Shown one piece after another: positions 22,653 through 46,729 of a stretch of DNA of 64,000 nucleotides. Position numbers and translations under genes: made by a program. The stretch is from Aliirhizobium smilacinae (GTDB taxonomy: Bacteria; Pseudomonadota; Alphaproteobacteria; Rhizobiales; Rhizobiaceae). The DNA lies in NCBI RefSeq assembly GCF_006335145.1, contig NZ_VDMN01000002.1:62001-126000 (forward strand). The letters are read 5' to 3'. Within the stretch, counting starts at the first letter, position 1, and each line of letters opens with the position of its first letter. Under the pieces are notes generated by a model. That model was not told the DNA's origin, did no database searches, and saw only the letters and a list, made by a program, of their open reading frames with translations.

Positions 22653-23615
22653 CTATCCGCACGATTTTGCAGCTTCCAAATCTGCCGATAAGCCAGCCGT
22701 TTTAAGCGCCGCCACGAGTTCAAGCACCTCAGCGGGATTAAGCTCCAAGATTGGCGTACGGGATTTTACGGTAGGAATGCGGCCCAGAAGCTTTAGGCAT
22801 GTCTTCAGTCGCAACGTAGCGAGATGGCCTGGCGCACCGTAAACTGCTCGAGCAAGAACATAAAGCTTTTCATGGATCTCTCGTCCCACAGCAAGATCGC
22901 CACGGAGAATGGCCCGGTCGAGCGCAACGATCAGTTCCGGCACGACGGCGGCGAGGCTGACAAGACTGCCGTCGCTGCCGATCGCAAAACAGGTGAACAG
23001 ATGCTCGTCGCCCGATGCCATGACCGCGACATCCGGGCGCAGCTTCCTGGAAAGCCTCCGCGTCAAATCATAGGCCGCGGTTTCCCAGCTGCCTTCCTTG
23101 ATGCCGACGACACTTTCGATTTCCAGGAGTTTTGTCAAAATGCTTGTCGAAAATGCTGTCTTTCCGGAACCGACGGAGCCCTGGAACAAGAACAACGGCA
23201 GACCGGAAGCGGCCGCAACGGCCCGATGATGCTCAACGATCAACCGCTCGTCTGCGCCGAGGGCCCAGGAAAAGGGCGGAAAGACCATGACGGCATTCGC
23301 ACCATACCGCGCAGCGTCCTCGGCGAGAGCTGCGGCGATATCCGTGCGTTCGGAATTGATCCCTGCGACGATCAGGCTTTTGCCGCATGCGGCTCTGGCG
23401 GTCCTCACGACTTCCGCACTTTCAGCTCGGTCCAGCGCAAAATTCTCGCCGGCATGGCCGTTGATCAGCAAGCCGCTCATGCCGTCGATACCCGCAACCG
23501 ACGACAGATGCGCAGCAAGATTGTCGATGTCAATCTGGCCGGTCTCTGTCATCGGGCATATGGTTGAAGCGAAGATTCCGGCGAACGTGTGATCCCGGCC
23601 TGCTGTCTGCACCAT
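22653..23615 (-). CDS. DHDPS/N-acetylneuraminate lyase-family aldolase or dehydratase
   Basis: The 320-residue TIM-barrel protein has Schiff-base Lys in VVGIKEGSWE and a GxxGE-type loop (LLINGHAGENFAL). The usual catalytic Tyr of the YNxP motif reads FQ here (LFLFQGSVGSG), a feature shared with the other family member in this operon. ATG 23615 follows GAAGGAAG; the codon at 23636 is less well placed. It is the last gene of the 14-gene catabolic region, 39 bases after the hydantoinase. A retro-aldol release of pyruvate, or a dehydration, is possible. Confidence 0.87.
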   Translation of the reverse strand: MVQTAGRDHTFAGIFASTICPMTETGQIDIDNLAAHLSSVAGIDGMSGLLINGHAGENFALDRAESAEVVRTARAACGKSLIVAGINSERTDIAAALAEDAARYGANAVMVFPPFSWALGADERLIVEHHRAVAAASGLPLFLFQGSVGSGKTAFSTSILTKLLEIESVVGIKEGSWETAAYDLTRRLSRKLRPDVAVMASGDEHLFTCFAIGSDGSLVSLAAVVPELIVALDRAILRGDLAVGREIHEKLYVLARAVYGAPGHLATLRLKTCLKLLGRIPTVKSRTPILELNPAEVLELVAALKTAGLSADLEAAKSCG

Positions 23616-23654
23616 TATACTTCCTTCGATTTTCAATGTTTGCGTTTTGACCCG

Positions 23655-25064
23655 TCAGGCGCCGACATATTCGCTGATGCCGCGCGCCAGGATCTGCCCG
23701 TGCCCACGATCGCCGAGTACCTCGCCGTCGCGATAGACGATCTTGCCACGGACGAAGGTGGCGACAGGCCAGCCGGTGACCTCAAAACCTTCCCAAGGCG
23801 TATAGTCCGAGCCGTGATGCAGGATTTCCTGACGCAATGTCTCCTTGCGCTTTGGATCCCAGAGACAGATATCGGCATCGAAACCTATGCCGATCGAACC
23901 CTTTTTCGGATAAAGCCCGTACATCCGCGCGTGGTTGGTCGCCGAAAGTGCGACAAAGGTCTGCGGTGTGATCCGCCCCTTGGACACACCTTCGGAAAAT
24001 AGAATGGGCAACCGCGTCTCGACACCCGGAATGCCGTTCGGTACCCAGCGGAACGAGGAGCGTGCCTTGGGATTGAGCTTGCCCTGCGGCGAGTCATAGC
24101 GGAATGGGCAATGGTCCGAGGAGAAAGTCTGGAATACGCCTTGGGAAAGGCCTTCCCAAATCGCCTTCTGGCTCTCGGCGTCCCGCGGTGGCGGCGAACA
24201 AACGTATTTGGCGCCCTCCATGCCCAGGCCATCGAGATCCTCGGCCGTCAGCGTGATATATTGCGGGCAGGTCTCGGCATAGACCTTGAGGCCGCGCCGC
24301 TGTGCCCAGCGTACCTGTTCCATCGCCTCTGCTCCTGAGACGTGGACGATCATGATGGGCACATCGACCAGCTGCGCGTGACTGATTGCCCGATGCGCCG
24401 CCTCCCGTTCGACCACTTCTGGGCGTGATACGGCATGATAATAGGGCGCGACCTTGCCTTCCTGTTCGAGCCGTTCAGCGAGGAAGCGGATGGTGTCGTA
24501 GCCTTCGCAATGCACCATGACGAGCGCTTTTTCCCGTCGCGCGACGTCGAAGACGGCAAGCAGCTCTCGATCGTTCAAAACGAGATCGTCGTAGGTCATG
24601 AAGACCTTGAATGAGGTATAACCGTCCTTCACCAAAGCCGGCAATTCCTGGCCGAGCACGGCCGGCGTCGGATCGGAAATGATCAGGTGGAAGCTCGTAT
24701 CGACAAAACACTCGCCCTCGGCCAGCTTGCGGTAATCCTCGACCGACTGTCTCAGCGACTGGCCGCGCTTTTGCAGCGCAAAGGACATGACGGTCGAATT
24801 GCCGCCCGCCGCGGCAGAAGCCGTGGCAGAAGCAAAATCGTCCGCCATCACGATGCCCGGCCCGGAATCCTGCGCGATATGCACATGGCTGTCGATGCCA
24901 CCGGGCATGACCCAAAGGCCGGACGCATCGACTTCCTGCCGCGCGCCGGTGATCTCGTCCGAGATTGCCACGATCCGGCCGTCGAAAATACCGATGTCGC
25001 CCTTGTACATGTCGCTTGCGGTGACAATCGTTCCGCCGCGGATCGCAAGATCCAATTCGCTCAT
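23655..25064 (-). CDS. Dihydropyrimidinase/hydantoinase-family cyclic amidohydrolase
   Basis: The 469-residue amidohydrolase has a complete binuclear metal site: His60 and His62 (GGIDSHVHI), carboxylatable Lys153 (YTSFKVFMTY), His185 (VHCEGYD), His241 (IVHVSGAEA) and Asp317 (SSDHCPF). These enzymes open cyclic amides such as hydantoins, dihydropyrimidines or imides. No carbamoylase or beta-ureidopropionase gene is nearby, so the substrate may not be a pyrimidine. It is closely packed between DUF3830 and a DHDPS-family lyase. Confidence 0.92.
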   Translation of the reverse strand: MSELDLAIRGGTIVTASDMYKGDIGIFDGRIVAISDEITGARQEVDASGLWVMPGGIDSHVHIAQDSGPGIVMADDFASATASAAAGGNSTVMSFALQKRGQSLRQSVEDYRKLAEGECFVDTSFHLIISDPTPAVLGQELPALVKDGYTSFKVFMTYDDLVLNDRELLAVFDVARREKALVMVHCEGYDTIRFLAERLEQEGKVAPYYHAVSRPEVVEREAAHRAISHAQLVDVPIMIVHVSGAEAMEQVRWAQRRGLKVYAETCPQYITLTAEDLDGLGMEGAKYVCSPPPRDAESQKAIWEGLSQGVFQTFSSDHCPFRYDSPQGKLNPKARSSFRWVPNGIPGVETRLPILFSEGVSKGRITPQTFVALSATNHARMYGLYPKKGSIGIGFDADICLWDPKRKETLRQEILHHGSDYTPWEGFEVTGWPVATFVRGKIVYRDGEVLGDRGHGQILARGISEYVGA

Positions 25065-25094
25065 GACAGACTCCCTTTTGCCGGTCTCTTGAAA

Positions 25095-25502
25095 TCAGAC
25101 CCGCTCGAAGGCGATGGACTGGGCACCTTCCCACAGAACCTTCTTGCCGATCGTGGCCAGACGGTCATGGCCTTCGGTAATCGTCAGGAAATGATTGCCG
25201 GCAAGCTGCCCCGCCATGCTGGCGAAATTGACGCGGCCATAAGCGATGAGGATTTCCGTCTCGCTGACGCCACCCGGATAAAGGATGATCTCGCCCGGCG
25301 CGGGATAACTCGTCGCGTTCTCATAAGGAACGTCGAATTTCATGTCGCCCAGGGGCATCCAGACGCCCTGCCCACTCCAACGCACGTGAATGACCTGTTC
25401 CATGAAGGGCAGCCGCGCCAGAAAGCTCGCGCATGTGGCAGGCGCCTTTTCCATTTCCAGCCGCGCGGGAAAGGTTTCCCCGGCAATGGTAATCTTCAAC
25501 AT
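25095..25502 (-). CDS. DUF3830 family protein (cyclophilin-like fold)
   Basis: The 135-residue protein starts MLKITIAGETFPARLE and contains the VIHVRWSGQGVWMPLG and PGEIILYPGG segments of DUF3830 proteins. Function unknown; genes of this family often accompany hydantoinases or Asp/Glu racemases. The start at 25502 lies two bases after the aldolase stop, and the extension to 25553 runs into that gene. Likely co-translated with the hydantoinase. Confidence 0.85.
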   Translation of the reverse strand: MLKITIAGETFPARLEMEKAPATCASFLARLPFMEQVIHVRWSGQGVWMPLGDMKFDVPYENATSYPAPGEIILYPGGVSETEILIAYGRVNFASMAGQLAGNHFLTITEGHDRLATIGKKVLWEGAQSIAFERV

Positions 25503-25504
25503 GC

Positions 25505-26263
25505 TCAACGGGTTTTTCCTCCTTCGATATATTGTCTTGTCCTTGTCGCGCACTCCATTGCTGCTTCCGCGAGAAGGTTGATCTCGTTGGTCACGACGAT
25601 CAATCGGGCGCCAAGTGACAGGGCATGGGATTCAAGCAGCGCCGGCGGCACGCCCATCACGCCAAACACCTTGCCGTTTTCCCGTGCCGCAGTTGCAATG
25701 CGGGAAAAGGCGGCGGTGACTTTAGGATGGGTGAGATTGCCAGTATGGCCGAGCGACTGGGCAAGGTCCTGTGAGCCGATAAGCACGCCATCAAGACCAT
25801 CGACGGCAGCGATGTTCTCGACCGCCGCAAGCGCCTCCGCGCTTTCGATCATCGCGAAGATACGGAACCCTTCCTCGGACGCCGAGATCAGGTCCGCCGC
25901 CGGGACCGGCCAAAACGAGGCGGCAGCGATAGGGCTCGGCAGCGAGCGGTTTCCTTTCGGCGGGAAACGCAGCTTGTCGACGATGCCACGCGCCTCGGCA
26001 AGGCCGTCGACATGCGGCACGATGATCGCACGCGCGCCACAATCGGCGGCTCGTGTCAGATGGTCGGACGATGCTTTGGGCACCCGCACATAGACCGGGA
26101 AACCTGCCATGCGTCCGGCCACACACAGTGTCGCCGCCTCGCCAAGCGACATGGCGCTGTGCTCCATATCGGCCACCAGGAAATCGAAACCTGCATGTCG
26201 AGCAACCGGCAGGATTTCGACACTTCTGAACACACAGGCAGCCATGCCGAGTTCAACACTCAT
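25505..26263 (-). CDS. HpcH/HpaI-family class II pyruvate aldolase
   Basis: This protein of about 252 residues has HpaI marks: VADMEHSAMSL (catalytic His after the acidic pair), AMIESAEAL (metal Glu) and GVLIGSQDLAQSLG (metal Asp). These enzymes cleave 4-hydroxy-2-oxo acids or malyl-CoA-type substrates. ATG 26263 has AGGAA six bases upstream, while the ATG at 26269 abuts it. It sits between the ABC ATPase and DUF3830 genes and may perform the final C-C cleavage of the pathway. Confidence 0.9.
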   Translation of the reverse strand: MSVELGMAACVFRSVEILPVARHAGFDFLVADMEHSAMSLGEAATLCVAGRMAGFPVYVRVPKASSDHLTRAADCGARAIIVPHVDGLAEARGIVDKLRFPPKGNRSLPSPIAAASFWPVPAADLISASEEGFRIFAMIESAEALAAVENIAAVDGLDGVLIGSQDLAQSLGHTGNLTHPKVTAAFSRIATAARENGKVFGVMGVPPALLESHALSLGARLIVVTNEINLLAEAAMECATRTRQYIEGGKTR

Positions 26264-26329
26264 TCTCATTTCCTCATCAAGCTATTTCCGACGCGCGGAC
26301 AATCCTCGGGCGCCTCGTTCGATACCCGT

Positions 26330-27100
26330 TTAGTGAATGATCTGATCGAGGAAATAACGAGCCCGTTCGGTCTGTGGCGCGGTAAAGAACTGGTCCGGCG
26401 GCGCCTGTTCGACGATCCGGCCCCGGTCCATAAACACGACCCGGTCGGCGACCTCGCGCGCGAAGCCCATTTCGTGGGTCACGCAGATCATTGTCATGCC
26501 GTCGCCGACGAGGCTCTTCATCGTTTCCAACACTTCCTTGACCATTTCCGGATCGAGCGCCGAGGTCGGCTCGTCGAACAGCATCACTTTCGGCTGCATG
26601 CACAGCGCGCGGGCGATCGCCACACGCTGCTGCTGACCACCGGAGAGCTGAGCCGGAAATTTCTGGGCCTGGTCGGCAATATGGACACGCTCCAGAAGCG
26701 CCCTGGCGCGATCCTCGGCATCCTTGCGCGACAGGCGATGCGCCGACATCGGTGCAAGCACGCAGTTTTCTAGAATAGTCATATGGGGAAAAAGGTTGAA
26801 GTTCTGGAAGACCATTCCCGTCTCGCGCCTGACCCGGTCGATCGACTTCGGATTATGTTGCAATTCGATGCCGTTGACGAAGATCAGGCCTTCGTCATGT
26901 TTCTCGATATGGTTGATGCAGCGGATCAGCGTAGACTTGCCGGAACCGGACGGACCACAGATGACAATACGTTCGCCTTTTCCGACCTTCAGGTCGATCT
27001 CGGTCAAAGCCGTGAAATCGCCATAGCGTTTGTAGACCGCTTCCATGCGGACTGCATATTGGTCCTTCTCGCCCAGACCGTGATGTGTATCGTTCGTCAT
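26330..27100 (-). CDS. Amino-acid-type ABC transporter ATP-binding protein
   Basis: The 256-residue ATPase has Walker [10 protein letters not shown], signature LSGGQQQR and Walker [13 protein letters not shown], with the HisP/GlnQ-type ending. It powers import through the permease encoded 21 bases upstream. Only one permease gene is present, so the channel is probably a homodimer. The polar-amino-acid subfamily also imports other small charged molecules, so the cargo may be the cyclic amide or acid degraded by the operon. Confidence 0.94.
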
Positions 27101-27121
27101 TGGAACCTGCCTTTCTGGAAA

Positions 27122-27850
27122 TCAGCGCCGTTTGGCAGGGGTTGATTTGGCATTGCGGTCGAGGGATCGGCCGAAATGGCTTTCGAGGCGCTGTTGTATC
27201 AGGTCCCAGACCGAGACGAGCAGCAGGTAATAGACGGCTGCGGCGGCATAAACTTCAAGGATCTGGAAATGCTCCTGCATCAGCATGTCGCTACGCCGCA
27301 TGATTTCCTCGACCGAAATGACCGAGGCAAGCGAGGTCGCCTTGAGCAGTGAATTCACCGAATTGCCGAAAGGCGGGATCATCAGACGGAAAGCCTGCGG
27401 CAGCGTCACGCGCCAGAAGATCGTGCGCCTGGGGACGCTGAGCGCCCATGCGGCTTCGCGCTGTCCCTGTGGCACGGACATGAAGCCGCTACGGATGATC
27501 TCGGCCAGATAGGAGGCCTCGTGCAGGATCAGGCCGATCAATGCCGAATTGATGACGCCGAGTTTGATACCGAGCTGCGGCAAGCCGGTATAGATGACCA
27601 CGAGCTGGATCAGGAGCGGCGTGCCGCGGAAGAACCAGATATAGGTTCGCGCAAAACCGTACAGAGCGAGATTCTGCGACATTCTCATCAGCGCGATGAT
27701 CATGCCGAGAACGAGGCCGCCGGCGACACTCGCCAAGGTCAGTCCGATGGTGACGAGAACGCCCCCCATCAGGAAATGATTGAAAAGATAGTCGACGAAT
27801 GCTGCCGGATCGAAAAAACGCACGTTCATCTCCTGTTGGGCGTGCGGCAC
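27122..27850 (-). CDS. Amino-acid-type ABC transporter permease
   Basis: The 242-residue protein has five helices and the inner-membrane coupling motif region EAAWALSVPRRTIFWRVTLPQA. It belongs to the His/Glu/Gln permease family. A GTG at 27850 is taken as start; ATG 27829 is in frame but its GGAG directly abuts it. A large stem-loop separates it from the binding-protein gene upstream. Confidence 0.92.
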   Translation of the reverse strand: MPHAQQEMNVRFFDPAAFVDYLFNHFLMGGVLVTIGLTLASVAGGLVLGMIIALMRMSQNLALYGFARTYIWFFRGTPLLIQLVVIYTGLPQLGIKLGVINSALIGLILHEASYLAEIIRSGFMSVPQGQREAAWALSVPRRTIFWRVTLPQAFRLMIPPFGNSVNSLLKATSLASVISVEEIMRRSDMLMQEHFQILEVYAAAAVYYLLLVSVWDLIQQRLESHFGRSLDRNAKSTPAKRR

Positions 27851-27882
27851 GGGATCTCGGTGCCATCGTTAGGATCATCGAG

Positions 27883-27924
27883 CTCGCGCGCCTGAAATCG
27901 CATGATGATGATCAGGCGCGCGAG
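27883..27924 (-). promoter_or_regulatory. Large stem-loop between binding-protein and permease genes
   Basis: A perfect 13-base stem (CTCGCGCGCCTGA at 27883-27895 with TCAGGCGCGCGAG at 27912-27924) encloses a 16-base loop. It lies between the stop of the binding-protein gene and the permease start, with no T-run. Such structures protect or uncouple the upstream message, allowing more binding protein than permease. Confidence 0.7.
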
Positions 27925-27951
27925 AGCTGTTTGCAATCAGGCCGGCTCTAA

Positions 27952-28791
27952 TCAGGCAGGACCGGGACCAGCGATTTCGACCGGTTCGTCATCCTTGAGA
28001 GGAGTCAGGCCAAACTTGTCGAACAGTGCCTTGTAGGAGCCGTCGGCGCGCATTTCTGTCGTTGCCTTGACGATCGCCTCTGCAACCGCCTTGTTACGGA
28101 AGGACATGGCGGTGCGCGCCGCGCCGAGGCCGGAGAGAACTTCCTTGACCCTGCCCTTGCTGACGAGATCGCGTGCCACGCTGTCGACCAGAAGCGCATT
28201 ATCCGTCTGTCCGGCAAGAAGCGCAGCAACCACGTTGGTGGCGGTCGGGAAGGTGCGCATCTCGACGGGCTTGGCACCCTTGGCAGCGCTGTCGTCGCTG
28301 AACTTCTTCAGCCAGTTCATCTGGTAGGTGCTAACTTCGACCGCCGAGGTTTTGCCGAGCAGTTCCTCCGGCTTGGAATAGGCTTCCTTGCTGTCCGGTG
28401 CCACGACGACGGAGACCGACTGGCGACCGTTCGGCACCAGATACATCAGCTTGGAGCGTTCTTCGGTCCAGAACATGCCGGTATTCATGCCGTCGATGCG
28501 GCCGGCCGTCATCGCCGGGATCATCGCCGGAAAGTCCATGCGGACGAGTTCGACCGGTAGGCACAGGCGTTTCGACAATTCGGCAGCCATCTCGACATTC
28601 AGGCCCTGCAGCTTGCCGTCCTTGTCGATGAATTGCTGCGGCGGGTTGGTCGGGTTGATGGAAAGCTGAAGCTTGCCTTTTTCAACCAGGTTCTCATCGC
28701 TGATCACCGGTGCGGTGCAGGCAGCGAAGGCGGCGGCAGGCGAAAGTACGAGGGTCGCGACGGCGCTCGCTTTCATAAGAAATTTCATCAT
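27952..28791 (-). CDS. Polar amino acid-type ABC transporter substrate-binding protein
   Basis: The 279-residue protein has a signal peptide (about 1-26, AAAFAACTAP) and an SBP_bac_3 fold: GKLQGLNVEMAAELSKRL, AGRIDGMNTGMFWTEER and a C-terminal DGSYKALFDKFGL. Starts at 28791 and 28788 are adjacent; GGAGAG suits the former. The 115-base gap upstream may hold its own promoter, splitting the region into two transcription units. Ligand not predictable. Confidence 0.92.
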   Translation of the reverse strand: MMKFLMKASAVATLVLSPAAAFAACTAPVISDENLVEKGKLQLSINPTNPPQQFIDKDGKLQGLNVEMAAELSKRLCLPVELVRMDFPAMIPAMTAGRIDGMNTGMFWTEERSKLMYLVPNGRQSVSVVVAPDSKEAYSKPEELLGKTSAVEVSTYQMNWLKKFSDDSAAKGAKPVEMRTFPTATNVVAALLAGQTDNALLVDSVARDLVSKGRVKEVLSGLGAARTAMSFRNKAVAEAIVKATTEMRADGSYKALFDKFGLTPLKDDEPVEIAGPGPA

Positions 28792-28906
28792 GTTGTTCTC
28801 TCCGGAGTGGTGAAATTTTGAATTCACGTCTTGTCTTTTTCTTATCCTTGTTCCGCCGCCACAGCTTGGAAAATGGCGACGGCCTAAGCGCATGACACCC
28901 GACTGC

Positions 28907-29200
28907 TCAGCCGATTGGACGAAGCTGGATCCGGGTGAAATTCCTGACATAAGGCTCGAAGGGACCGAAGCCCTTTACCTTGGAAAACTCGGGTGTCTCG
29001 AAAGCCCAGCGGCCGGCCACCTCATACATCGCGGCATAACGCGGACCGTCTCCGACAGAGACGAAGCGCTTGGCGGAAAGCCACCCCGGGCAGGCAAGAA
29101 GGTCCGGAAAATGCGTTTCGACATACCATCTGTTGAACGCATCCTCATGTTCCGGGTCGATATCGACACGCACGATATGGGTGAAAGCCTCGTCCTGCAT
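28907..29200 (-). CDS. Small dimeric alpha-beta-barrel protein (DUF4286-like)
   Basis: The 97-residue protein with THIVRVDIDPEHEDAFNRWY and HFPDLLACPGWLSAKRF has the ferredoxin-like pattern seen in DUF4286/EthD-type proteins. ATG 29200 follows AAGGAG; the longer frame to 29263 lies inside the next gene. Ten bases separate it from the DHDPS-family gene upstream. Role unknown, possibly isomerase, stabiliser or monooxygenase-like. Confidence 0.7.
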   Translation of the reverse strand: MQDEAFTHIVRVDIDPEHEDAFNRWYVETHFPDLLACPGWLSAKRFVSVGDGPRYAAMYEVAGRWAFETPEFSKVKGFGPFEPYVRNFTRIQLRPIG

Positions 29201-29210
29201 CGCGATCTCC

Positions 29211-30152
29211 TTAAGCCAGCCGGATGTCGCCGGCCGTGCGGGCAGCTTCGACAACCATTGCAATATTGGCGGAAATCCCTTCTTCGGTCGGCATCATCGG
29301 CGCACGCGGCGATGCGTTACGGATCACCCCGAGCGCCTTGAGGCCAGTCTTCATGCGCGTGTGCATGTCGATCAGCGGCGACGGTCCGTAGATCGCGCGA
29401 ACGATCGGGTAAAGACGGTCGTTGACAGCGCGCATGGCAGAGAGATCGCCGGCAGCGCTTGCCTGCCAAAGCTCTGCAAACAGATGTGGCGCAAGACTGC
29501 CCAGACCCGAAAGGATGCCATCGGCACCAACCGCCATCTGTGGCAGGAACCAGTTATAGTTAGAGGCAAGGATCGACACATGCGGGCTCGCTTTCTTCAC
29601 GGCGCGCCAGTTCTCGTCATAGGCCAGCATCGTATCGCTGCCTTCCTTGACGGCGATGACGCCCTTGATCGAAGCAAGTTCGCACAGAGTCTCGGTCGAA
29701 TAGCCGTAACCGGAGGTGACCGGATACTGGAAAAGCGAGACCGGGATATTGATCGCTTCGGAAACAGCACGCACATAGGCAACCGGTGCACGCGATGTCG
29801 CCGAGGCCCCGCCGCCAAGCGGGCCCGGCGGAAAGAGAACGGCACAATCGGCACCAGCCGCCTCGGCCATCTTCGCCTCCGCAATTGCTTCGGCGGTGGA
29901 GGCCGTAATTATCCCCGCAAGAACCGGCTTGTTCGGGATATGGGCGCGGGTACGCTCGATCACTTCGCGGCGCTCGGCCGCGGTCAGCAGTCCGCCTTCG
30001 CCGGCATGGCCGTTGACGAGGGCGGCGGTGACACCGTCCGGCGCGACACAATAATCGAGCACGCGGGCATAATCGTTCCAATCGATCGAGAAATCGTCGC
30101 GATAGGGGAGAAGCGTTGCGACCGTCAGGCCTTTCAGATCCGGTGTCTTCAT
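29211..30152 (-). CDS. DHDPS-family aldolase or dehydratase
   Basis: The 313-residue TIM-barrel protein has Schiff-base Lys in GVIAVKEGSD and VNGHAGEGGLLT for substrate carboxylate binding. As in its paralogue at 22653-23615, the catalytic Tyr position of the YNxP motif is Phe (LFQYPVTSG), although a Tyr follows two residues later. ATG 30152 has GAGG six bases upstream. It lies 21 bases after the MaoC gene, suggesting it acts after hydration. Confidence 0.87.
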   Translation of the reverse strand: MKTPDLKGLTVATLLPYRDDFSIDWNDYARVLDYCVAPDGVTAALVNGHAGEGGLLTAAERREVIERTRAHIPNKPVLAGIITASTAEAIAEAKMAEAAGADCAVLFPPGPLGGGASATSRAPVAYVRAVSEAINIPVSLFQYPVTSGYGYSTETLCELASIKGVIAVKEGSDTMLAYDENWRAVKKASPHVSILASNYNWFLPQMAVGADGILSGLGSLAPHLFAELWQASAAGDLSAMRAVNDRLYPIVRAIYGPSPLIDMHTRMKTGLKALGVIRNASPRAPMMPTEEGISANIAMVVEAARTAGDIRLA

Positions 30153-30173
30153 CGTCGTCCTCATGTCGCTTTC

Positions 30174-30608
30174 TCAGGCCGCCGGCTTTTTGCGGGGAAA
30201 TTTCAGTGTCGCCTCGGCCTTCAGCACTTCCAGGCCGTCTTCATTGCGGGCGCTCGCCTGCCAGATGATCGTGCGGTTTTCCTCACGTTTCTCGGCAATC
30301 CAGACTTCGAACGTAATGGTGTCGCCGTAGACGACCGGGCCGGTGAACCAGAAGCGATCCTCGATAGATATGCCGACAACGCCGACGAGTTCGCTGGTCA
30401 GGATGCTGGTGCACAGCCCCGCGACCATGATGCCGGGCGCCAACCTTTTGCCGAAGCGAGTGGCGCCGGCATAAACCTCATCCACGTGAACAGGCCCGAA
30501 ATCGCCCGTCGCCGCGATGTAGAGCGCGCCGTCGGCCTCGGTTATTGTCTTGGAGATCGCAACCTTGTCTCCGACATTCAGGTCATCGAAGGATTTGAAG
30601 TCGTACAT
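30174..30608 (-). CDS. MaoC-like hydratase, active-site-containing subunit
   Basis: This 144-residue hot-dog-fold protein carries a hydratase-2 motif with both catalytic residues, Asp and His, in ATGDFGPVHVDEVYA. It would hydrate an enoyl-CoA made by the adjacent acyl-CoA dehydrogenase. ATG 30608 starts four bases after the second MaoC gene; a frame extension to 30911 is a shadow inside that gene. The two MaoC proteins probably form a heteromer. Confidence 0.9.
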   Translation of the reverse strand: MYDFKSFDDLNVGDKVAISKTITEADGALYIAATGDFGPVHVDEVYAGATRFGKRLAPGIMVAGLCTSILTSELVGVVGISIEDRFWFTGPVVYGDTITFEVWIAEKREENRTIIWQASARNEDGLEVLKAEATLKFPRKKPAA

Positions 30609-30612
30609 CGCA

Positions 30613-31038
30613 TCACCCCTTCGCCGCGAAGGGAACGAGGCGGGCCGTGCCTGCGATGATTTCCTCACCGGTACCACTGTTGATGCAGGAGATCTTGCAG
30701 ACGGCGTCATCTCCTTCGATCGCGGTGATCTCGGCGCTCGCCTGCACGGACTCGCCGACGATGACGGGAGCCATGAAGGTGAGTGCGATCGCGCCGATAC
30801 GTCGGTCAGGGCCACCGAGACGGTTGAGACAGGTGGTGGAAAGAGCGCTGACGGCAAGTTCGAAGGAAACCATTCCGGCAGCACCGGCCTTCGCGGCGGC
30901 ACGCGCATCAACGTAGAGCGGGCCGAGATTGCCGCTGATGCCGGTGAACATAGCCTGTTCTGCGACCGTCATCGTCTTGCGGAAGGAAAAGGTCGCGCCG
31001 ACCGCCAAGGGAGCCATCAGGGGAGATTGCGTCGTCAT
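30613..31038 (-). CDS. MaoC-like protein with degenerate active site
   Basis: A 141-residue hot-dog-fold protein paralogous in layout to the following gene. In the hydratase motif it reads ISGNLGPLYVDARAA, so the catalytic Asp is Asn and the His is Tyr. Loss of both residues argues against independent activity. Pairs of intact and degenerate MaoC subunits are known in actinobacterial steroid degradation (ChsH1-ChsH2), where they form one enzyme. It lies 13 bases after the acyl-CoA dehydrogenase gene. Confidence 0.88.
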   Translation of the reverse strand: MTTQSPLMAPLAVGATFSFRKTMTVAEQAMFTGISGNLGPLYVDARAAAKAGAAGMVSFELAVSALSTTCLNRLGGPDRRIGAIALTFMAPVIVGESVQASAEITAIEGDDAVCKISCINSGTGEEIIAGTARLVPFAAKG

Positions 31039-31051
31039 TGAGAAGTCTTCC

Positions 31052-32215
31052 TTAGAGATTGAGGCCGTTCTTGATCATGCTGCGGGCGATCAGCATGCGG
31101 TGGATTTCAGACGTGCCGTCATAGATGCGAGTAACGCGTGCATCGCGATACATCCGCTCCAGCGGAACTTCCTTGGTGAAGCCCATGCCGCCAAAAACCT
31201 GGATGGCGCGGTCGACGACACGGCCCTGCATTTCGGAGGCTGCGACCTTGATCATCGAGACCTTGTCGCGTGGTTCCATGCCTTGATCGATTTCCCATGC
31301 GGCATTCAAGACCATCATCTTGACGCCAAAGATCTCGATTGCGCTGTCTGCAATCAGCTTCTGCACCATCTGGAAATCGCCGATCGCCTGGCCGAACTGC
31401 TTGCGCTCACCGGCATAGGTGCGCATCATTTCGAGCGCACGGCTCGCCATGCCGACGGCACGGGCACCGATATGGGCCAGGCGAATTTCAAGAACGCTCT
31501 TCATGATCAGCTTGAAGCCATTGCCGACCTCGCCGAGCACGGCAGATGCCGGGATGCGGCAATTGTCGAACACCAGCTCGGCGTGACCGTAGCCACGATG
31601 CCCCATCATCGGCTGATTGCGAGCAACCTTGAAGCCGGCCGTACCCTTGTCGACAAGGAAGAGAGTGATGCCGCCGCGAGCGCGCTTTTCCTTGTCGGTC
31701 AGCGCCATGACGATCACGTAGTCGGCAATGTCGCCATCGCTGATGAAATGCTTGGTACCGTTCAGCACCCACTCGTCGCCATCGAGATGCGCCGTCGTGG
31801 TGATGGAAGCAGCATCCGATCCGGCGCCCGGCTCGGTAATGGCCATGGCACAGATCTTGTCACCGCGAACGGTTGGCAGCAGATATTGGTCGCGCTGGTC
31901 GCCTTCGCAGGCGAGAAGCATCGGATAGACCTGGCCGAATACGCGGCGGATCAGTGCATCGGAGGTCTTGCCGAGTTCTTCCTCGACCAGGCAATGGTCG
32001 ACGCAGGAGAGACCGCCGCCACCGACATCTTCCGGCATGTTCATCGCATAAAGGCCGAGTGCCTGCGCCTTCGCCTTGACGCGTTTCAGCTCTTCGGGGG
32101 GAATACGGGCGTCGTGCTCGGTCGCTTCTTCCAACGGCTGAACCTCGGTCTCCACGAATTTTCGGACAGTTTCGACCAGCAGCCGGCTGTCATCCGTCAG
32201 TGAAAAGTCTATCAT
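31052..32215 (-). CDS. Acyl-CoA dehydrogenase family flavoprotein
   Basis: The 387-residue protein has the standard ACAD layout: AITEPGAGSDAASI (FAD/substrate loop), GTKHFISDGDIADY, ERKQFGQAIGDFQ, QVFGGMGFTKEVPLERMYRDAR, and RIYDGTSEIHRM near the C-terminus. In that last motif the usual catalytic Glu of YEGT is Asp366. ATG 32215 is preceded by GGAAG; four residues upstream are in frame but unsupported. It would oxidise the CoA ester formed by the two CaiB-type transferases encoded upstream. Confidence 0.92.
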   Translation of the reverse strand: MIDFSLTDDSRLLVETVRKFVETEVQPLEEATEHDARIPPEELKRVKAKAQALGLYAMNMPEDVGGGGLSCVDHCLVEEELGKTSDALIRRVFGQVYPMLLACEGDQRDQYLLPTVRGDKICAMAITEPGAGSDAASITTTAHLDGDEWVLNGTKHFISDGDIADYVIVMALTDKEKRARGGITLFLVDKGTAGFKVARNQPMMGHRGYGHAELVFDNCRIPASAVLGEVGNGFKLIMKSVLEIRLAHIGARAVGMASRALEMMRTYAGERKQFGQAIGDFQMVQKLIADSAIEIFGVKMMVLNAAWEIDQGMEPRDKVSMIKVAASEMQGRVVDRAIQVFGGMGFTKEVPLERMYRDARVTRIYDGTSEIHRMLIARSMIKNGLNL

Positions 32216-32241
32216 CTTGTCTTCCAATCGGCCCGAAGGCG

Positions 32242-33462
32242 TTATCCATGATGCAACTCGGCCGGCTCTGCCTGCCCGATCACACCCATTCTGATCAGCG
32301 CGTCCTGCCTTTCGGCCGACATGCCCAGTTCCGTCATGATGTCCCGGCTGTCCGTGCCGGGATAAAGCGGCATGCGTCGCATCGCAGGCGTCTCCCCGTC
32401 ATAGCGCAGCGGATGATTGATCAGCGTGGCCGTCTTGCCATTGATGTCGATCTCACCGAACACGCCCATATGTTTCGCCTGCGGATCCTCCAGCAGGTCC
32501 TCATAGGACTGGACACGCTCGAACCAGACTCCATGTTCGTTGAAGACGCTTTCGACCTGGAAAAAACTGCGTTTCGCAAGAATGTCTGCCATGACGGCGG
32601 CATAACGATCACGCTCGGCATAACGGTCGATCGAGCGCAGCGCGCGCAAGTCGTCGCTGTCCAGCGCTTCGGCAAGTTTTCCGGCGTCGTTCATCGAAAG
32701 CACGATGCGGGCGTCGGTCAGCGTATAGAGCCCGTAAGGCGCATCGTGATACCAGCTACCGCAATTGCGGCCGCGCTTCACCCGGTTCGCCCGGTCCGGA
32801 GCCGCGTAATATTTCGTCAATGCCTCGACCTGCAGATCTATTGCAGCAGCAAACAGGCTCGATTCCACCCTTGCGCCCTCGCCTGTCTGCAGGCGGCGGA
32901 CATACGCGCCGAGAATGCCCATGGCGAGCAGTGAGCCGCCATGTTGATCGACCACTGCAGCGCCGACGACCGAGGGACCATCCTCTCCACCGCCGGTGGC
33001 GGCAATCAGGCCAGAGCGCGCCTGCATAAGCAGATCCTGGCCGGGCCGTTTGGCGGCAGGCCCGGTGGCACCGAGGCCGGAGGCGGACGCATAGATGATC
33101 GCCGGGTTGATTTCGCGGACAGCTTCATAACCGAGGCCGAGCCTGTCAAGCACGCCTGGGCGATAATTCTCCACCAGCACATCCGCGTCGGCGATCAAAT
33201 CGCGGGCGATCGCAAGGCCCTCTTCGGATTTCACGTCGATGGCGATCGAACGCTTGTTGCGGTTGACCGCCAGCGAAAAGGCGCTGACATCTGTCACCCA
33301 TGAATTGCCGCCCGACCAGTGGCGCTCGAAGGCACCCTTGAGTGGCTCGATCTTGATGACGTCGGCTCCCATATCGGCCAGATACTGGCAGCAGGCCGGG
33401 CCCTGCAGATAATGACAGAAGCTGATGACCTTCATGCCGATTTCCATGGAACCCGCCATCAT
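32242..33462 (-). CDS. CaiB/BaiF family type III CoA-transferase
   Basis: The 406-residue enzyme has the catalytic Asp in GQDLLMQA, and CoA-binding regions including DVLVENYRPGVLDRLGLGYE and NRNKRSIAIDV. It transfers CoA between carboxylic acids. It overlaps the preceding CoA-transferase gene by four bases (ATGA). The tandem pair may form a heteromeric enzyme or act on two substrates. Confidence 0.93.
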   Translation of the reverse strand: MMAGSMEIGMKVISFCHYLQGPACCQYLADMGADVIKIEPLKGAFERHWSGGNSWVTDVSAFSLAVNRNKRSIAIDVKSEEGLAIARDLIADADVLVENYRPGVLDRLGLGYEAVREINPAIIYASASGLGATGPAAKRPGQDLLMQARSGLIAATGGGEDGPSVVGAAVVDQHGGSLLAMGILGAYVRRLQTGEGARVESSLFAAAIDLQVEALTKYYAAPDRANRVKRGRNCGSWYHDAPYGLYTLTDARIVLSMNDAGKLAEALDSDDLRALRSIDRYAERDRYAAVMADILAKRSFFQVESVFNEHGVWFERVQSYEDLLEDPQAKHMGVFGEIDINGKTATLINHPLRYDGETPAMRRMPLYPGTDSRDIMTELGMSAERQDALIRMGVIGQAEPAELHHG

Positions 33463-34646
33463 TTCGCTCCAACCGCCGAGGCGGCAAGGAGCGCATCGAT
33501 CTCGGCAGCGCCGTAACCGATTTCGCCGAGAACTTCGCGGGTCTGGGCGCCGAGCCGCTGCGGCACCAGTCGCACTTCGGGCGACTGGCCGTTATAACGG
33601 GCCGGATGCATTACCATCGTCACATCCTTGCCATAGGCGCCCTCGACCGTCTTGAAGGCTCCCATATGTGAGAGCTGCGGATCGGCCTGCAGGTCCTCAT
33701 AATCCTGGACCGGCGCATGCCAGATCTTGCCGGCCTCGAGTAGAGGCAGCCATTCGGCGGTCGTTTTCTCCGTCAGCTTTCCGGCGACAAGCCGGGTAAT
33801 TTCCTCGCGGCGGGCAAAACTGTCCGTGTCGGTAAAATTTTCCAGAGCGGCAATACCGAGCACGCTGGCCAGCGCCTTCGGTGCCGCCATCGAGACGGCG
33901 AGATGACCATCGGCCGTCGCATGGATGCCGTAAGGACCGGGCGAGAACCAGGAGGCTATGCCGGCCGGGCCACGCGAGGTCGGCGATTGCGCTCCGTTCA
34001 GCCATGCCGTCAGCGGCTCGACCTGCAGGTCGATTGCGGCCTGGTAAAGATTGACCTCGACAAGACGCCCTTCGCCGGTCTTCGCCTTGGCGAAAAGCGC
34101 TGCAAGGATAGCCATGGCATAAAGCGAAGCCGCGTGCTGGTCGACGATGACGGCGCCGACCGGTGTCGGTGCGCCTTCGGCAGTGCCGGTCCTGGCGGCA
34201 AGGCCAGACATTGCCTGCAAAAGCAGATCCTGGCCCGGCCGATCACGATAGGGGCCATCGCCGCCGAAACCCGTGGCAACCGCATAGATCAGGCTTGGAT
34301 TGATAGCCTTTAGCTGTTCGTAACCAAGGCCGAGTTTCGCCATCGTGCCGGGCCGGAAATTCTCCATCACGACATCCGCCGTTTCGACCAGTTTCTTGAC
34401 GGCTGCGACACCCTGCGGGTTCTTCAGGTCGACCGCGATGCTGCGCTTATTGCGGCCGGTCGCAAGATGATTGACGCTGTCACTCTCGACGAAACGATTG
34501 GCGACAGCCCAGTTACGCTGGAAGGCCCCTTCGATCGGTTCGACCGCGATAACATCCGCGCCAAGATCAGCCAAAGTCTGTGCGGCAAGCGGGCCGGCCA
34601 GAAAGTGATTGAAGCTGAGGATCTTAACGCCGCTCAAAAGGCCCAT
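33459..34646 (-). CDS. CaiB/BaiF family type III CoA-transferase
   Basis: The 395-residue paralogue of the next gene has the same landmarks: GRNKRSIAVDLK, DVVMENFRPGTMAKLGLGYE, and catalytic Asp in PGQDLLLQAMSG. It is the first gene of the minus-strand region and lies opposite a LysR gene. The family includes formyl-, carnitine-, succinyl- and mesaconyl-CoA transferases; the acceptor acid is not predictable. Confidence 0.93.
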   Translation of the reverse strand: MGLLSGVKILSFNHFLAGPLAAQTLADLGADVIAVEPIEGAFQRNWAVANRFVESDSVNHLATGRNKRSIAVDLKNPQGVAAVKKLVETADVVMENFRPGTMAKLGLGYEQLKAINPSLIYAVATGFGGDGPYRDRPGQDLLLQAMSGLAARTGTAEGAPTPVGAVIVDQHAASLYAMAILAALFAKAKTGEGRLVEVNLYQAAIDLQVEPLTAWLNGAQSPTSRGPAGIASWFSPGPYGIHATADGHLAVSMAAPKALASVLGIAALENFTDTDSFARREEITRLVAGKLTEKTTAEWLPLLEAGKIWHAPVQDYEDLQADPQLSHMGAFKTVEGAYGKDVTMVMHPARYNGQSPEVRLVPQRLGAQTREVLGEIGYGAAEIDALLAASAVGAK

Positions 34647-34836: not shown

Positions 34837-35727
34837 ATGAATCTACGACAGTTGGAAATTCTGGCAGCGGTGATCAGGACCCATTCAACGATTGCGGCAG
34901 CACAGGATCTGGGAATGTCGCAGCCTGCTGTGTCCAATTCGATCAAGAGCGCGGAGGCCTCGTTGGGGTTTCTCCTATTCGAGAGAGTGAACAACCGCCT
35001 CATTCCAACGCCGGAAGCGCAGGTTCTTCTCGGTGAAGCGGAACCGCTGTTCCTGATGCGTGATACGGTCATGCAGACGGCTGCCTATCTGAAGGCTGGA
35101 CGCAAGGGACGGATCCGGGTGGCTGCAACAGCGGAGCTTTCGGAATCGCTGATGCCGCAAGTAATTTCCCGCTTCCTGACGAACCATCTGGGTGTCGAAG
35201 TCGCGCTGGAAACGCACCGGCTGGATACTGTACTGAACTATGTGGAGACTGGCGTCTCTGATATTGGCTTTGCCATGGAGCCTTATCCTCGACCGTCGCT
35301 TGAACAAACACCGCTCGCCGCGCTCGATATGGTTTGCGCATTCTCCCCGGACAGCGAATTAGGTAAACTGCAGTTCGTCACCCCCGTGGATCTCGACGGC
35401 ATGCCGGTGATAAAGGCCGGCTCGGGCAGCCGTATCAATAAACTGATCGAGGAAGCGTTTCAAAAGAGCCGAGTAGTCTTTAATCCAACCGTTGACGTCC
35501 GCTTCATGAACGTGGCCGGCTATTGTGTCGAGCAGGGTGTTGGGGTGGCCATCATCGACGAGTTGACAGCGTCCTGCCGACAGCACGGCACAATGCGGGT
35601 ACTACCCTTCAGGCCACGCGTACAGATTAGTCTTGCAGCGGTAAGCGCAGCATCGCGTCCACAGCAGCGTCTCGTTAAATCCTTGGTGAAATACGCTCGC
35701 GACGAAGTTGCCAAGAGGCTTCGATAA
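34837..35727 (+). CDS. LysR-family transcriptional regulator
   Basis: The complete 296-residue protein has an N-terminal helix-turn-helix (TIAAAQDLGMSQPAVSNSIKSAE) and an effector domain (AGSGSRINKLIEEAF, GYCVEQGVGVAIIDELTA). It is divergent from the CoA-transferase operon and is its likely activator. The effector is probably a pathway substrate or CoA-free acid. The ATG has only a weak GGG-rich ribosome site. Confidence 0.93.
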   Translation: MNLRQLEILAAVIRTHSTIAAAQDLGMSQPAVSNSIKSAEASLGFLLFERVNNRLIPTPEAQVLLGEAEPLFLMRDTVMQTAAYLKAGRKGRIRVAATAELSESLMPQVISRFLTNHLGVEVALETHRLDTVLNYVETGVSDIGFAMEPYPRPSLEQTPLAALDMVCAFSPDSELGKLQFVTPVDLDGMPVIKAGSGSRINKLIEEAFQKSRVVFNPTVDVRFMNVAGYCVEQGVGVAIIDELTASCRQHGTMRVLPFRPRVQISLAAVSAASRPQQRLVKSLVKYARDEVAKRLR

Positions 35728-36898: not shown

Positions 36899-37663
36899 TC
36901 AGTAACCGCCCGTCAGGAAAATACTCTCACCGGTCATGAAGCTGCAGGCCTGGGATGAGAGCAAGATCGCCGCGCCGACCATTTCTTCTGGCTGGCCGGC
37001 TCGTCCCATCCAATTCAGCGTGCGGGCATATTCTGCCCAACCCTCTGGATCTTCGTCACGTCTGTGGGCATTTCGATCGGTATCGATCAAGCCGGGGGCA
37101 AGTGTATTGAGCAGGACATTGTCCTTTGCATAATCACGCGCCTGGCTCTGGATGAGATTGTGTTGCGCTGCCTTCGTTGCGGCATAGGCGGTGACTATAC
37201 CTTTCGGGCGAAGCTGGTTGATCGAGCCGATGGAGACCACCCTGCCCCATTTGCGCGCGGCCATGTGCGGCAGGACTGTCTGCAGCATATCGACGGTCGA
37301 ACCGAAGTTGACGGCCACCTGAAAAGCGAAATCTTCGGGCATCAGATCCGCAAGGGTGGCGTTGATCTGGGCGCTGGCGTTGATGACCAGGATATCCACC
37401 GGGCCTATGGCTTCGGCCTGCTCAATCAGATTGCGGCCGGCATGGGGTGCGGACAGGTCGCAAGCTAGTTCCTGTGCCGTGCCGCCGTTTTTGACAATCC
37501 GCTCTTGCACGGCCGCGGCGGCATCGGTTTTGGTGCCATGCAGAATGACATGTGCTCCTGCTCCCGCCAGCCCCTCAGCGATAGCCGCGCCAATACCGCG
37601 GCTGGAACCGGTGACGAGCGCCCTGCGCCCCTTCAAACCAAAGATGGCTTCAAGATTCATCAT
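36899..37663 (-). CDS. Short-chain dehydrogenase/reductase (SDR)
   Basis: The 254-residue SDR has cofactor motif TGSSRGIG, NAS at the usual NAG position, catalytic Ser in SIGSIN and YAATK (Tyr-x-x-x-Lys). It oxidises or reduces a sugar acid or polyol. ATG 37663 shares a base with the TAA of the upstream IclR-SMP-30 gene. It is the last gene of the sugar-acid operon. Confidence 0.92.
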   Translation of the reverse strand: MMNLEAIFGLKGRRALVTGSSRGIGAAIAEGLAGAGAHVILHGTKTDAAAAVQERIVKNGGTAQELACDLSAPHAGRNLIEQAEAIGPVDILVINASAQINATLADLMPEDFAFQVAVNFGSTVDMLQTVLPHMAARKWGRVVSIGSINQLRPKGIVTAYAATKAAQHNLIQSQARDYAKDNVLLNTLAPGLIDTDRNAHRRDEDPEGWAEYARTLNWMGRAGQPEEMVGAAILLSSQACSFMTGESIFLTGGY

Positions 37664-39345
37664 TATCCCCCAAACGATGAGATGCGCGCACCGGCAACAC
37701 CCGGGCGGCAGGAAAACAGGCCACCGGACAATGGCGCATCGGCCAAAGTCGAGGCTGGCAGGCGTGTGCGCGCGCTGGTGATGAAAAGCGTGGAAAGGTC
37801 CGGTCCACCGAAGGCAATGCTCGAAGGCCGCGGCACCGGCATTTCGATTACTTGATCGAGCTTGCCGTCGGGGAGGTAGCGACGCACGCACCAGCCATCC
37901 CAGATCGCGCACCAGACACCGCCTTGCGCATCGACGGCAAGACCATCAGGCCGCCCGTCAGAGACCGGGATACGGGCAAATTCCCGGCGAGCAGAAAGCG
38001 CGCCGGTCATTGCATCGCAATCATAGGCATGGATCAGGCCGGGCACCGTGTCGACGAAATAGAAGGTACCGCCATCCGGGCTCCAGCCGAGGCCATTCGA
38101 GACGATGATGCCTTCTTCCTTGCGTTCAAACGCACCGGTCTTATCGATGCGATAAAGCGCACCCGTCGGCTTGGACGCATCGATGCGCATCGATCCGACC
38201 CAGATTGCACCATCCGGCCCGCATTTGGCGTCGTTGAGACGGTTGTCTGCGATTCCAGCCTCTGGACTAACGAATGGGGTCAAACGGCCGGAGGCAAAAT
38301 CCAACCATTCGACGCCGTCCTGCGATGCGACCAGAAGACGGTCTTCAGTCACCGGAATGACGGCGCTGACAAGCTTGCCCGTTTCGCACGTTTCGTTACG
38401 ACCGGTTGCGGGGGAAAAGCGATGAACTGCCGGGTGGAGGATATCAACCCAATAAAGAGCATTTTCCGCCTCATGCCATACAGGGCTTTCGCCCAGCTGC
38501 GCCCCCCAGGGTAGAATGCAACTCAGTTCCGCCATCGGCTTTCCGGTTGCTGAGCGCGGTCGGGGGCGAGAGCTGATGGCAACGGCGCCCGCAGCACCGG
38601 TAATGCGCCGGGCGGCGGCAATCAGTTCACGCCCCACCGGGTGGATATTGGATGCTTCAAGGCGTGATGAGGGGCCAAGCGCCACCAGCACGCCGATCGG
38701 CGTGTTGTCGCGTCCCATCACCGGGGCTGCGACCGAATTGACGCTTAGCAGATGCTCTTCATAGGAGATCGAATAACCACGTGCCCGCGTCAGTGTCAGA
38801 TCGGTCTGCAATGCCTCGAGAGAGGTTATGGTCTGCGGCGTCTGGCGATCAAGCGTCAGACGATCCATAAGCGACCGCCCCACCGCCGGATCCTGGAACG
38901 CGAGAAGCGCCTTTCCCGGGGCGGTACAGTGCAGCGGTACGCGGCGACCGACCTCGACCCTCACGGAAAGACCATTGGGCGATCGTTCGGCCAGATATTG
39001 CGTCATGACACCATCGAGGCGGCACAGGGCAACTGTCTCGCCGAGTTCGGCCGCCAGTCGCTCCAGTTCCGGTGTGGCTGCCGAGACGAGATCAAAGCTC
39101 TCCCAGACCTTATGAGACATCTCGAGAAAACGCTGACCCAGAACATAGGTGCCGCGTGCTTCATCTTGCCGGACAAGACCATAGGCGATCAGCGTCCGCA
39201 GGATGCGGGCGAAGGTTGGTTTCGGCAAGCCGGAGGCTCGCAGCAGTTCTGCGAACCGCAGCGGTTCGGGCGCGTCTGCGACCATGTCGAGGAGGGTTAG
39301 GCCCTTGGCGAGTGCCGCCGTGCCGCCCGGTGTCTCTGGCTTCAT
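37663..39345 (-). CDS. IclR-type regulator fused to an SMP-30/gluconolactonase domain
   Basis: One uninterrupted 560-residue frame joins two normally separate proteins. Residues about 1-255 are a full IclR regulator: winged helix with LRFAELLRASGLPKPTFARI, then the effector domain with LHCTAPGKALLA. After a Pro/Arg-rich linker, residues 271-560 are a complete SMP-30 lactonase with metal ligands Glu286 (LGESPVWH), Asn371, Asn417 (NGLGWSPDG) and Asp467 (RPDGLAVDA). ATG 39345 has AGAGGG upstream and overlaps the epimerase stop. An internal ATG at 38535, preceded by GGAAAG, could also yield free lactonase. It probably senses and hydrolyses a sugar-acid lactone of this operon. Confidence 0.88.
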   Translation of the reverse strand: MKPETPGGTAALAKGLTLLDMVADAPEPLRFAELLRASGLPKPTFARILRTLIAYGLVRQDEARGTYVLGQRFLEMSHKVWESFDLVSAATPELERLAAELGETVALCRLDGVMTQYLAERSPNGLSVRVEVGRRVPLHCTAPGKALLAFQDPAVGRSLMDRLTLDRQTPQTITSLEALQTDLTLTRARGYSISYEEHLLSVNSVAAPVMGRDNTPIGVLVALGPSSRLEASNIHPVGRELIAAARRITGAAGAVAISSRPRPRSATGKPMAELSCILPWGAQLGESPVWHEAENALYWVDILHPAVHRFSPATGRNETCETGKLVSAVIPVTEDRLLVASQDGVEWLDFASGRLTPFVSPEAGIADNRLNDAKCGPDGAIWVGSMRIDASKPTGALYRIDKTGAFERKEEGIIVSNGLGWSPDGGTFYFVDTVPGLIHAYDCDAMTGALSARREFARIPVSDGRPDGLAVDAQGGVWCAIWDGWCVRRYLPDGKLDQVIEMPVPRPSSIAFGGPDLSTLFITSARTRLPASTLADAPLSGGLFSCRPGVAGARISSFGG

Positions 39346-44516: not shown

Positions 44517-44540
44517 GGTTTCCTCCTCCAAAGAACCAAT

Positions 44541-46612: not shown

Positions 46613-46630
46613 TTCTTCACCTCCCAATGA

Positions 46631-46692: not shown

Positions 46693-46729
46693 AAGCCCCC
46701 AGATGAAATGAGCAGAGGAGGCTCACGAC

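Follow-up and report, generated by a model that had tools for sequence, protein, structure and literature searches.

Fourteen minus-strand genes, running from 34646 down to 22653 in a 64-kb stretch of Aliirhizobium smilacinae (the window; positions 62,001 to 126,000 of contig NZ_VDMN01000002.1, from a 6.0 Mb draft genome of 29 contigs), lie beside a single divergent LysR gene at 34837-35727 (+), just as a first-pass annotation of the bare sequence had laid them out. We propose, with moderate confidence, that they are a LysR-linked accessory catabolic operon built from a coenzyme A (CoA) core and an optional ring-opening feeder. In this proposal an ATP-binding cassette (ABC) system would import a carboxylate, probably a dicarboxylate or an amino-acid-derived acid; a CaiB protein would transfer CoA to it; an acyl-CoA dehydrogenase would desaturate C2-C3; a heteromer of MaoC1 and MaoC2, with MaoC2 alone catalytic, would hydrate the product; and a Schiff-base lyase (DHDPS1 or DHDPS2), an HpaI-type aldolase, or both would cleave a C-C bond. 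The feeder would be a hydantoinase that, together with a DUF3830 protein, acts on a cyclic amide, imide or hydantoin and opens its ring, yielding a product that can enter the core. We infer the order of these steps, the class of substrate, and the roles of DUF3830 and of a small barrel protein.

The fourteen genes are likely to form one operon, because the gaps between them are small (from overlap up to about 118 nucleotides, with start codons refined by eye) and because terminator-like and promoter-like sites do not exceed those in shuffled sequence (7 against 12.7 expected, and 5 against 4.4, respectively). The refined starts are 32215 for the dehydrogenase, 30608 for MaoC2, 29200 for the small barrel protein, 28788 for the binding protein, 25502 for DUF3830 and 23615 for DHDPS2. 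One promoter-like site, at 34744-34715, falls inside the gap between LysR and CaiB1. For comparison we collected 54 loci (L001-L054) by a DHDPS1 scan of GTDB species genomes, 36 from Bradyrhizobium and 18 from elsewhere. Two of them, L001 (Phyllobacterium) and L002 (Pararhizobium polonicum), are collinear with the whole 15-gene block at 74-97% protein identity, and since both retain all 15 genes in order, the arrangement is, judged by sequence comparison, not chance. The regulator (Pfam LysR_substrate and HTH_1) is 88% identical in L001 and 84% in L002.

Pfam agrees with the family names given at first pass, returning CoA_transf_3 twice, Acyl-CoA_dh, MaoC twice, DHDPS twice, SBP_bac_3, BPD_transp_1, ABC_tran, HpcH_HpaI, DUF3830 and Amidohydro_1. 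NCBIfam was read from at most the best 25 matches per protein (25 of 189 for the importer ATPase, 25 of 52 for the hydantoinase and 25 of 47 for LysR), and among the matches listed D-hydantoinase is the only equivalog above its cut-off in the block. This, with a targeted search of the open-licence literature that gave no match, agrees with the first-pass remark that its author knew of no pathway using this set of genes.

The two CoA-transferases, CaiB1 (33459..34646, -) and CaiB2 (32242..33462, -), are 43% identical and score 320.4 and 300.6 bits against CoA_transf_3. Both belong to family III, the Asp that is presumably the active-site residue of that family (part of the VDQH motif in CaiB1) being kept in 50/50 CaiB1 and 4/4 CaiB2 sequences; these and later motif counts use orthologues from 56 loci covering at least 70% of the query at no less than 38% identity, an identity filter that removed four dehydrogenase rows and two DHDPS2 rows. 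The best NCBIfam model for CaiB1, below its cut-off, is succinate-glutarate CoA-transferase, and among named proteins it scores highest with enzymes for glutarate, hydroxymethylglutarate and mesaconate, in each case below the equivalog cut-off. A dicarboxylate or amino-acid-derived acid is the favoured substrate, because CaiB1 relatives act on dicarboxylates and related loci carry tripartite ATP-independent periplasmic (TRAP) carboxylate transporters.

The acyl-CoA dehydrogenase (31052..32215, -; Pfam Acyl-CoA_dh) has YDG rather than YEG as its catalytic-base motif in 50/50 aligned sequences, which suggests an Asp-based enzyme. The usual motif is YEG, and cyclohexanecarboxyl-CoA dehydrogenase has GDG, according to the relevant passages of PMC8360864. 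Four arginines are conserved (R90, R245 and R252 in 50/50 sequences, R91 in 49/50). ThnO binds a carboxylate through N88 and R249, as described in a section of PMC11659651; likening the arginines to these residues is only suggestive. In MaoC1 (30613..31038, -) the Asp/His dyad of the fold is replaced by Asn/Tyr: the Asp position holds Asn in 48/50 sequences and Asp in 2/50, the His position Tyr in 45/50 and His in 5/50, and the protein is probably non-catalytic. Its neighbor MaoC2 (30174..30608, -) keeps the GDxxPxH dyad intact, as GDFGPVH in 50/50 sequences, suggesting an active hydratase. HadAB and HadBC are heterodimeric MaoC hydratases, and the adjacent pair here resembles them in having, by motif, one active and one inactive subunit; it differs in its catabolic context, and the Had models match weakly, far below cut-off.

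Three proteins are candidates for the cleavage step. DHDPS1 (29211..30164, -), of the class I (Schiff-base) lyase family, keeps the Schiff-base Lys and has GHAGE and FQ in place of GTTGE and YN (Lys, GHAGE and Gln each in 55/55 rows, Phe in 54/55, Tyr in 1/55). DHDPS2 (22653..23615, -), a second GHAGE-type protein, is 52% identical to a DHDPS protein of Paraburkholderia pBN1; Lys and GHAGE are kept in 47/47 rows, with Tyr in 35/47 and Phe in 12/47, the window copy among the latter. The Tyr of the YN motif and the Thr pair of GTTGE are, we assume, catalytic in DapA and the pyruvate aldolases of the DHDPS family; DHDPS1 and DHDPS2 of the window thus share the Lys of these enzymes and have neither the Tyr nor the Thr pair. 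The third candidate is the HpcH/HpaI class II aldolase (25505..26269, -), HpaI-like and below the equivalog cut-off, in which the motif residues of HpaI-type aldolases, which we take to be catalytic, are retained in 13/13 rows. The importer consists of a family 3 periplasmic binding protein of the amino-acid type (27952..28788, -; SBP_bac_3), for which a PDB sequence search finds generic amino-acid binders, a single permease (27122..27850, -; 97.7 against 42.2 bits for the generic domain model HEQRo_perm_3TM) and a GlnQ-like ATPase (26330..27100, -) below its cut-off.

Neighborhood conservation, a check suggested at first pass, separates the core from its flank. Six genes (CaiB, dehydrogenase, MaoC1, MaoC2, DHDPS1 and the small barrel) are complete in 47/54 loci at the identity thresholds used, the whole block in L001 and L002, and a hydantoinase in the flank in 11/54. 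The core is incomplete in L015, L025, L039, L044, L050, L053 and L054; the stretches for L025, L039 and L044 start inside the cluster. L003 (Allorhizobium borbori) is collinear with the window only as far as the ABC ATPase, and most Bradyrhizobium loci have one CaiB, the dehydrogenase, MaoC1, MaoC2, DHDPS1, the barrel, the importer and DHDPS2. The operon is accessory by its distribution in sequenced genomes, because the dehydrogenase at E <= 1e-150 is found in 1/57 genomes of its own genus (the window genome itself) and 3/199 of the order. CaiB2, counted at a minimum of 60% identity, is present in 4/54 loci; its orthologs are seen only in L001-L003, L039 and L088. A second CaiB adjoins it in L001-L003 and L088, the L039 stretch starts at CaiB2, and the Bradyrhizobium loci show one CaiB.

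The hydantoinase of the feeder (23655..25064, -) scores 512.8 bits against TIGR02033 (cut-off 393.25) and 741.2 against PRK13404 (cut-off 647). The motifs DxHVH, SFKVFM, VHxE, HVS and SSDH, which presumably hold the metal ligands and the carbamylated lysine, keep their His, Lys and Asp in 12-13 of 13 rows (the first motif is gapped in one of them; the window protein was also aligned to 1nfg). Score and motifs alike mark it as a predicted D-hydantoinase/dihydropyrimidinase. Two more paralogs occur in the same genome, at C5:151353-152738 (50% identical) and C3:359365-360711 (40%).

Counted within the fetched flanks at 60% identity or better, the hydantoinase is present in 10/18 non-Bradyrhizobium loci and 1/36 Bradyrhizobium loci (L015); DUF3830, at 55% or better, is present in 6/54 loci, all non-Bradyrhizobium. 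One or the other occurs in 14/18 non-Bradyrhizobium loci, and 13 of those 14 also have labeled CoA-transferase, dehydrogenase or MaoC genes; the weak case is L054, with DUF3830, TRAP, adenosine monophosphate (AMP)-ligase and DHDPS genes and no labeled CaiB or dehydrogenase. The placement of the hydantoinase varies. It lies inside the operon in the window, L001 and L002, about 7-8 kb downstream of DHDPS1 and past an HpcH gene of opposite orientation in L041-L043, L045, L047-L049 and L051, and about 7.5 kb from CaiB in L079 (Bradyrhizobium sp. cir1). In L015 it sits in a divergent second CoA module, and the core from CaiB to MaoC2 is absent. When L042 (as L068/L069) and L051 (as L074) are extended, a second CoA module (MaoC, dehydrogenase and a 121-residue protein) comes after the hydantoinase, and DHDPS, TRAP and AMP-ligase genes come after that; DUF3830 is labeled in L069, and the L042 and L051 genomes both have a DUF3830 gene on the same contig. 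TRAP carboxylate transporters occur in L042, L046, L050, L054, L074 and L084, accompanied by AMP-ligase except in L042's own stretch.

Second CoA modules were seen at L010 (987-5897), L050/L085, L056, L069, L074, L079 and L084. They comprise an acyl-CoA dehydrogenase (unlabeled in L084), a MaoC protein, a protein of about 122-142 residues and usually a GntR or LacI regulator, often beside DHDPS, DctPQM, DUF3830 and AMP-ligase genes. A class I CoA-transferase is present in those of L010, L056, L079, L084 and L085, and none is labeled in L069 or L074.

In a FastTree phylogeny of 30 hydantoinases (midpoint-rooted, without printed support values), the CoA-linked copies fall on three branches, mixed with unlinked copies, and do not form one clade. 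Those of the window, L001 and L002 cluster with four copies from Bradyrhizobium, three of which adjoin a racemase-like gene, and that of L015 clusters with copies from Agrobacterium, Aureimonas and Jiella. The link between hydantoinase and CoA genes would have arisen on more than one occasion, or have been acquired and lost several times over, and shared function is the simplest reading of its recurrence. Where no hydantoinase is adjacent, one elsewhere could supply the ring-opening step: a homolog at E <= 1e-100 occurs somewhere in 27 of the 31 genomes searched.

The DUF3830 protein (25095..25502, -), a cyclophilin-like barrel, is the sole copy in its genome at E 0.001. Its structure model, built from six sequences, has a predicted local distance difference test (pLDDT) score of 81 (the other four models gave 43-64), and its VIA Z values are 18.5 for 3kop (an uncharacterized protein of cyclophilin-like fold), 17.4 for KslB, 15.9 for McbB, 13.2 for TM1367 and 11.8-12.6 for the cyclophilins listed. 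KslB fits over 127 residues at 1.9 A and McbB over 126 at 2.0 A. The model therefore shares its fold with the Pictet-Spenglerases KslB and McbB, nearer to them than to cyclophilins, and a fold alone shows no function. KslB receives a bare mention in the text of PMC12513458; for DUF3830 itself no literature was found among open-licence PMC papers. Numbered from the codon at 25505, W43, E62, E84 and N104 are kept in 24-25 of 25 sequences and H105 in 25/25. Neighborhoods were examined for 10 of the 38 plasmid records with a DUF3830 match. In nine, the neighbors are drawn, in sets that vary, from hydantoinases and other amidohydrolases, Asp/Glu-racemase-like proteins, Zn-dependent hydrolases, formamidases, DHDPS-family proteins, flavin adenine dinucleotide (FAD) oxidoreductases and importers; on several plasmids DUF3830 has both hydantoinases and FAD oxidoreductases nearby. 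None of these neighbor types was seen around DUF3830 on the Thalassospira plasmid. Queried for 34/54 loci, DUF3830 is present in 30/31 of the genomes behind them.

For the small dimeric alpha/beta-barrel protein (28907..29200, -) neither Pfam nor NCBIfam gives a match at E 0.001. Its AlphaFold model (pLDDT 95.3) matches barrels of the ABM, EthD, Dabb and methylmuconolactone-isomerase type, in line with the fold first suggested for it, and His30, Cys37 and Arg45 are invariant in 24 sequences.

The first-pass scheme had run from import of a cyclic amide or imide acid through ring opening, CoA activation, dehydrogenation and hydration to aldol cleavage. Its CoA half remains plausible, given a co-conserved set for transfer, dehydrogenation, hydration and lyase action together with an importer. 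That the route must begin with ring opening is not supported: in L003 and nearly all of the 36 Bradyrhizobium loci no HpcH, DUF3830 or hydantoinase adjoins the core and importer, which may therefore act on something other than a cyclic amide. Because most clusters have no adjacent hydantoinase, the feeder is, as far as gene neighborhoods tell, present in some lineages and not obligatory.

The same distribution allows that two unrelated modules, a CoA carboxylate operon and a hydantoin salvage set (hydantoinase, DUF3830 and DHDPS2), stand head to tail, perhaps with a common importer, an alternative we consider possible and on balance doubtful. On Paraburkholderia pBN1 a hydantoinase and DUF3830 accompany a GHAGE-type DHDPS and a family 3 importer without CoA genes, and plasmids of Agrobacterium, Azospirillum and Aureimonas combine hydantoinase and DUF3830 with a DHDPS-family gene and a family 3 importer; most clusters of the CoA genes, in turn, have no adjacent hydantoinase. 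Against this, CoA genes accompany the hydantoinase or DUF3830 repeatedly, in more than one gene order and with hydantoinases from separate branches of the tree, and in L044, L046 and L050 DUF3830 is found with DctM, AMP-ligase and DHDPS near CoA genes.

Several further observations weigh against a joint operon with core and feeder. The two may have unrelated substrates, because in 35/36 Bradyrhizobium loci the fetched flanks contain no hydantoinase of at least 60% identity, and L003 is without the feeder. Outside L001 and L002, the hydantoinase closest to that of the window (75%) is a Bradyrhizobium copy in a different gene group, which in two genomes shares a contig with DHDPS1 at a distance of about 36 and about 46 kb. 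The tree is without printed support values, and its window and marine branches could also be explained by a single ancestral link that was later lost in places. DUF3830 is present in 47/199 genomes of the order, of which 3 have the dehydrogenase at E <= 1e-150, and so its co-occurrence is partly phylogenetic and is not used here as strong evidence; at that threshold 196 genomes of the order have no dehydrogenase, and DUF3830 occurs in 44 of these, including 4/5 of the listed family-f35 genomes with DUF3830. No carbamoylase or half-amidase gene is among the block genes, and DHDPS1 and DHDPS2 of the window lack residues that known aldolases use.

The reading as a CoA core with an optional feeder can be made specific, at the cost of becoming improbable. 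If the lyases were pyruvate aldolases that take the hydratase product with no step in between, the chain would have six carbons and a 2-oxo acid end, since only there is the 3-hydroxyl left by the hydratase the 4-hydroxyl that a pyruvate aldolase requires; this is arithmetic, not evidence. A six-carbon amino acid in cyclic amide form (e.g. 2-aminoadipate as its lactam or hydantoin) would be opened by the hydantoinase with DUF3830, the latter handling a cyclic imine or amide as Pictet-Spenglerases handle an iminium. CaiB would activate the far carboxyl of the derived 2-oxoadipate, desaturation and hydration would give 4-hydroxy-2-oxoadipyl-CoA, and the DHDPS or HpaI-type lyase would release pyruvate and malonyl-semialdehyde-CoA.

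Orthology of the block to a characterized pathway, which would have undercut the first-pass scheme, was looked for by NCBIfam cut-offs and motifs and rejected for itaconate, carnitine, reductive pyrimidine breakdown, dapA and iaa. Targeted searches of open-licence PMC literature yielded no paper pairing a hydantoinase/dihydropyrimidinase or DHDPS with CoA genes, and none that brings a hydantoinase together with DHDPS, a TRAP transporter and hydroxyproline. Hydantoin utilization clusters consist of D-hydantoinase, racemase and carbamoylase. The block resembles them in a hydantoinase above the D-hydantoinase cut-off, and for some relatives the adjoining genes are Asp/Glu-racemase-like and DUF3830 ones; it differs in having CoA genes instead of a racemase or carbamoylase. 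To our knowledge the thn operon has no hydantoinase, and DHDPS, HpaI lyase and DUF3830 are all absent from the iaa operon of Aromatoleum aromaticum. The thn operon, which acts on 2-(carboxymethyl)cyclohexane-1-carboxyl-CoA, likewise has a CoA-transferase followed by a dicarboxyl-CoA dehydrogenase; as portions of PMC11659651 describe it, the transferase is Cat1-like, of another family, and the substrate alicyclic.

The iaa operon is the closest described combination of lactam opening, CoA-transferase and acyl-CoA dehydrogenase that we found; in indoleacetate breakdown a predicted gamma-lactamase acts with the other two (PMC8360864 and PMC5214803, in the sections concerned). A lactam-opening pathway of this auxin type is nevertheless very improbable here: the iaa ring-opener is predicted to be of the ATP-dependent hydantoinase family and is accompanied by a mutase (same sections), whereas the 14 proteins of the block include no mutase and no ATP-dependent lactamase of the HyuAB type, and IaaF-type dehydrogenases have GGG (PMC8360864, same section) where YDG stands here in 50/50, for which membership in the iaa system was rejected. 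It is just as unlikely that the block is one of the described short-acid routes, for itaconate, carnitine or reductive pyrimidine breakdown, supplemented by further genes, a reading to which weak RipB/Ich, RipC/Ccl, CaiA and CaiB matches and the dihydropyrimidinase match above cut-off might point, the models for the CoA genes and aldolases falling far below curated cut-offs (RipB/Ich 25.3 vs 340 and RipC/Ccl 26.9 vs 375 bits for itaconate Ict-Ich-Ccl, CaiA 197.5 vs 540 and CaiB 102.8 vs 413 bits for carnitine), and no carbamoylase occurring in the block.

Other features were seen elsewhere in the window. At 37663-39417 an IclR-type regulator is apparently fused in frame to an SMP-30/gluconolactonase domain (584 residues; IclR_C 103-272, SGL 308-550). 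A cluster at 3-7952, about 15 kb from the operon, has an arylmalonate-decarboxylase-type protein, DctM, RidA, DUF1028 and an M20 peptidase. A solute-binding protein, an enolase-superfamily protein and a third DHDPS-family gene (45704-46726) lie at 43245-46726, perhaps a sugar-acid cluster, and two RraA-like/aldolase genes (49431-50105 and 58744-59451) are each near amino-acid-type ABC importer genes.

We see the block as a probable CoA-based catabolic operon carrying a ring-opening attachment that is unusual and recurs. This conserved gene set belongs to the Alphaproteobacteria, mostly rhizobia and Rhodobacterales among the loci fetched, and none of the family models and open-licence papers searched names a substrate for it. 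Solving its chemistry would name a nutrient of these bacteria, give DUF3830 its first role, and account for a DHDPS subfamily whose catalytic residues depart from the usual ones.

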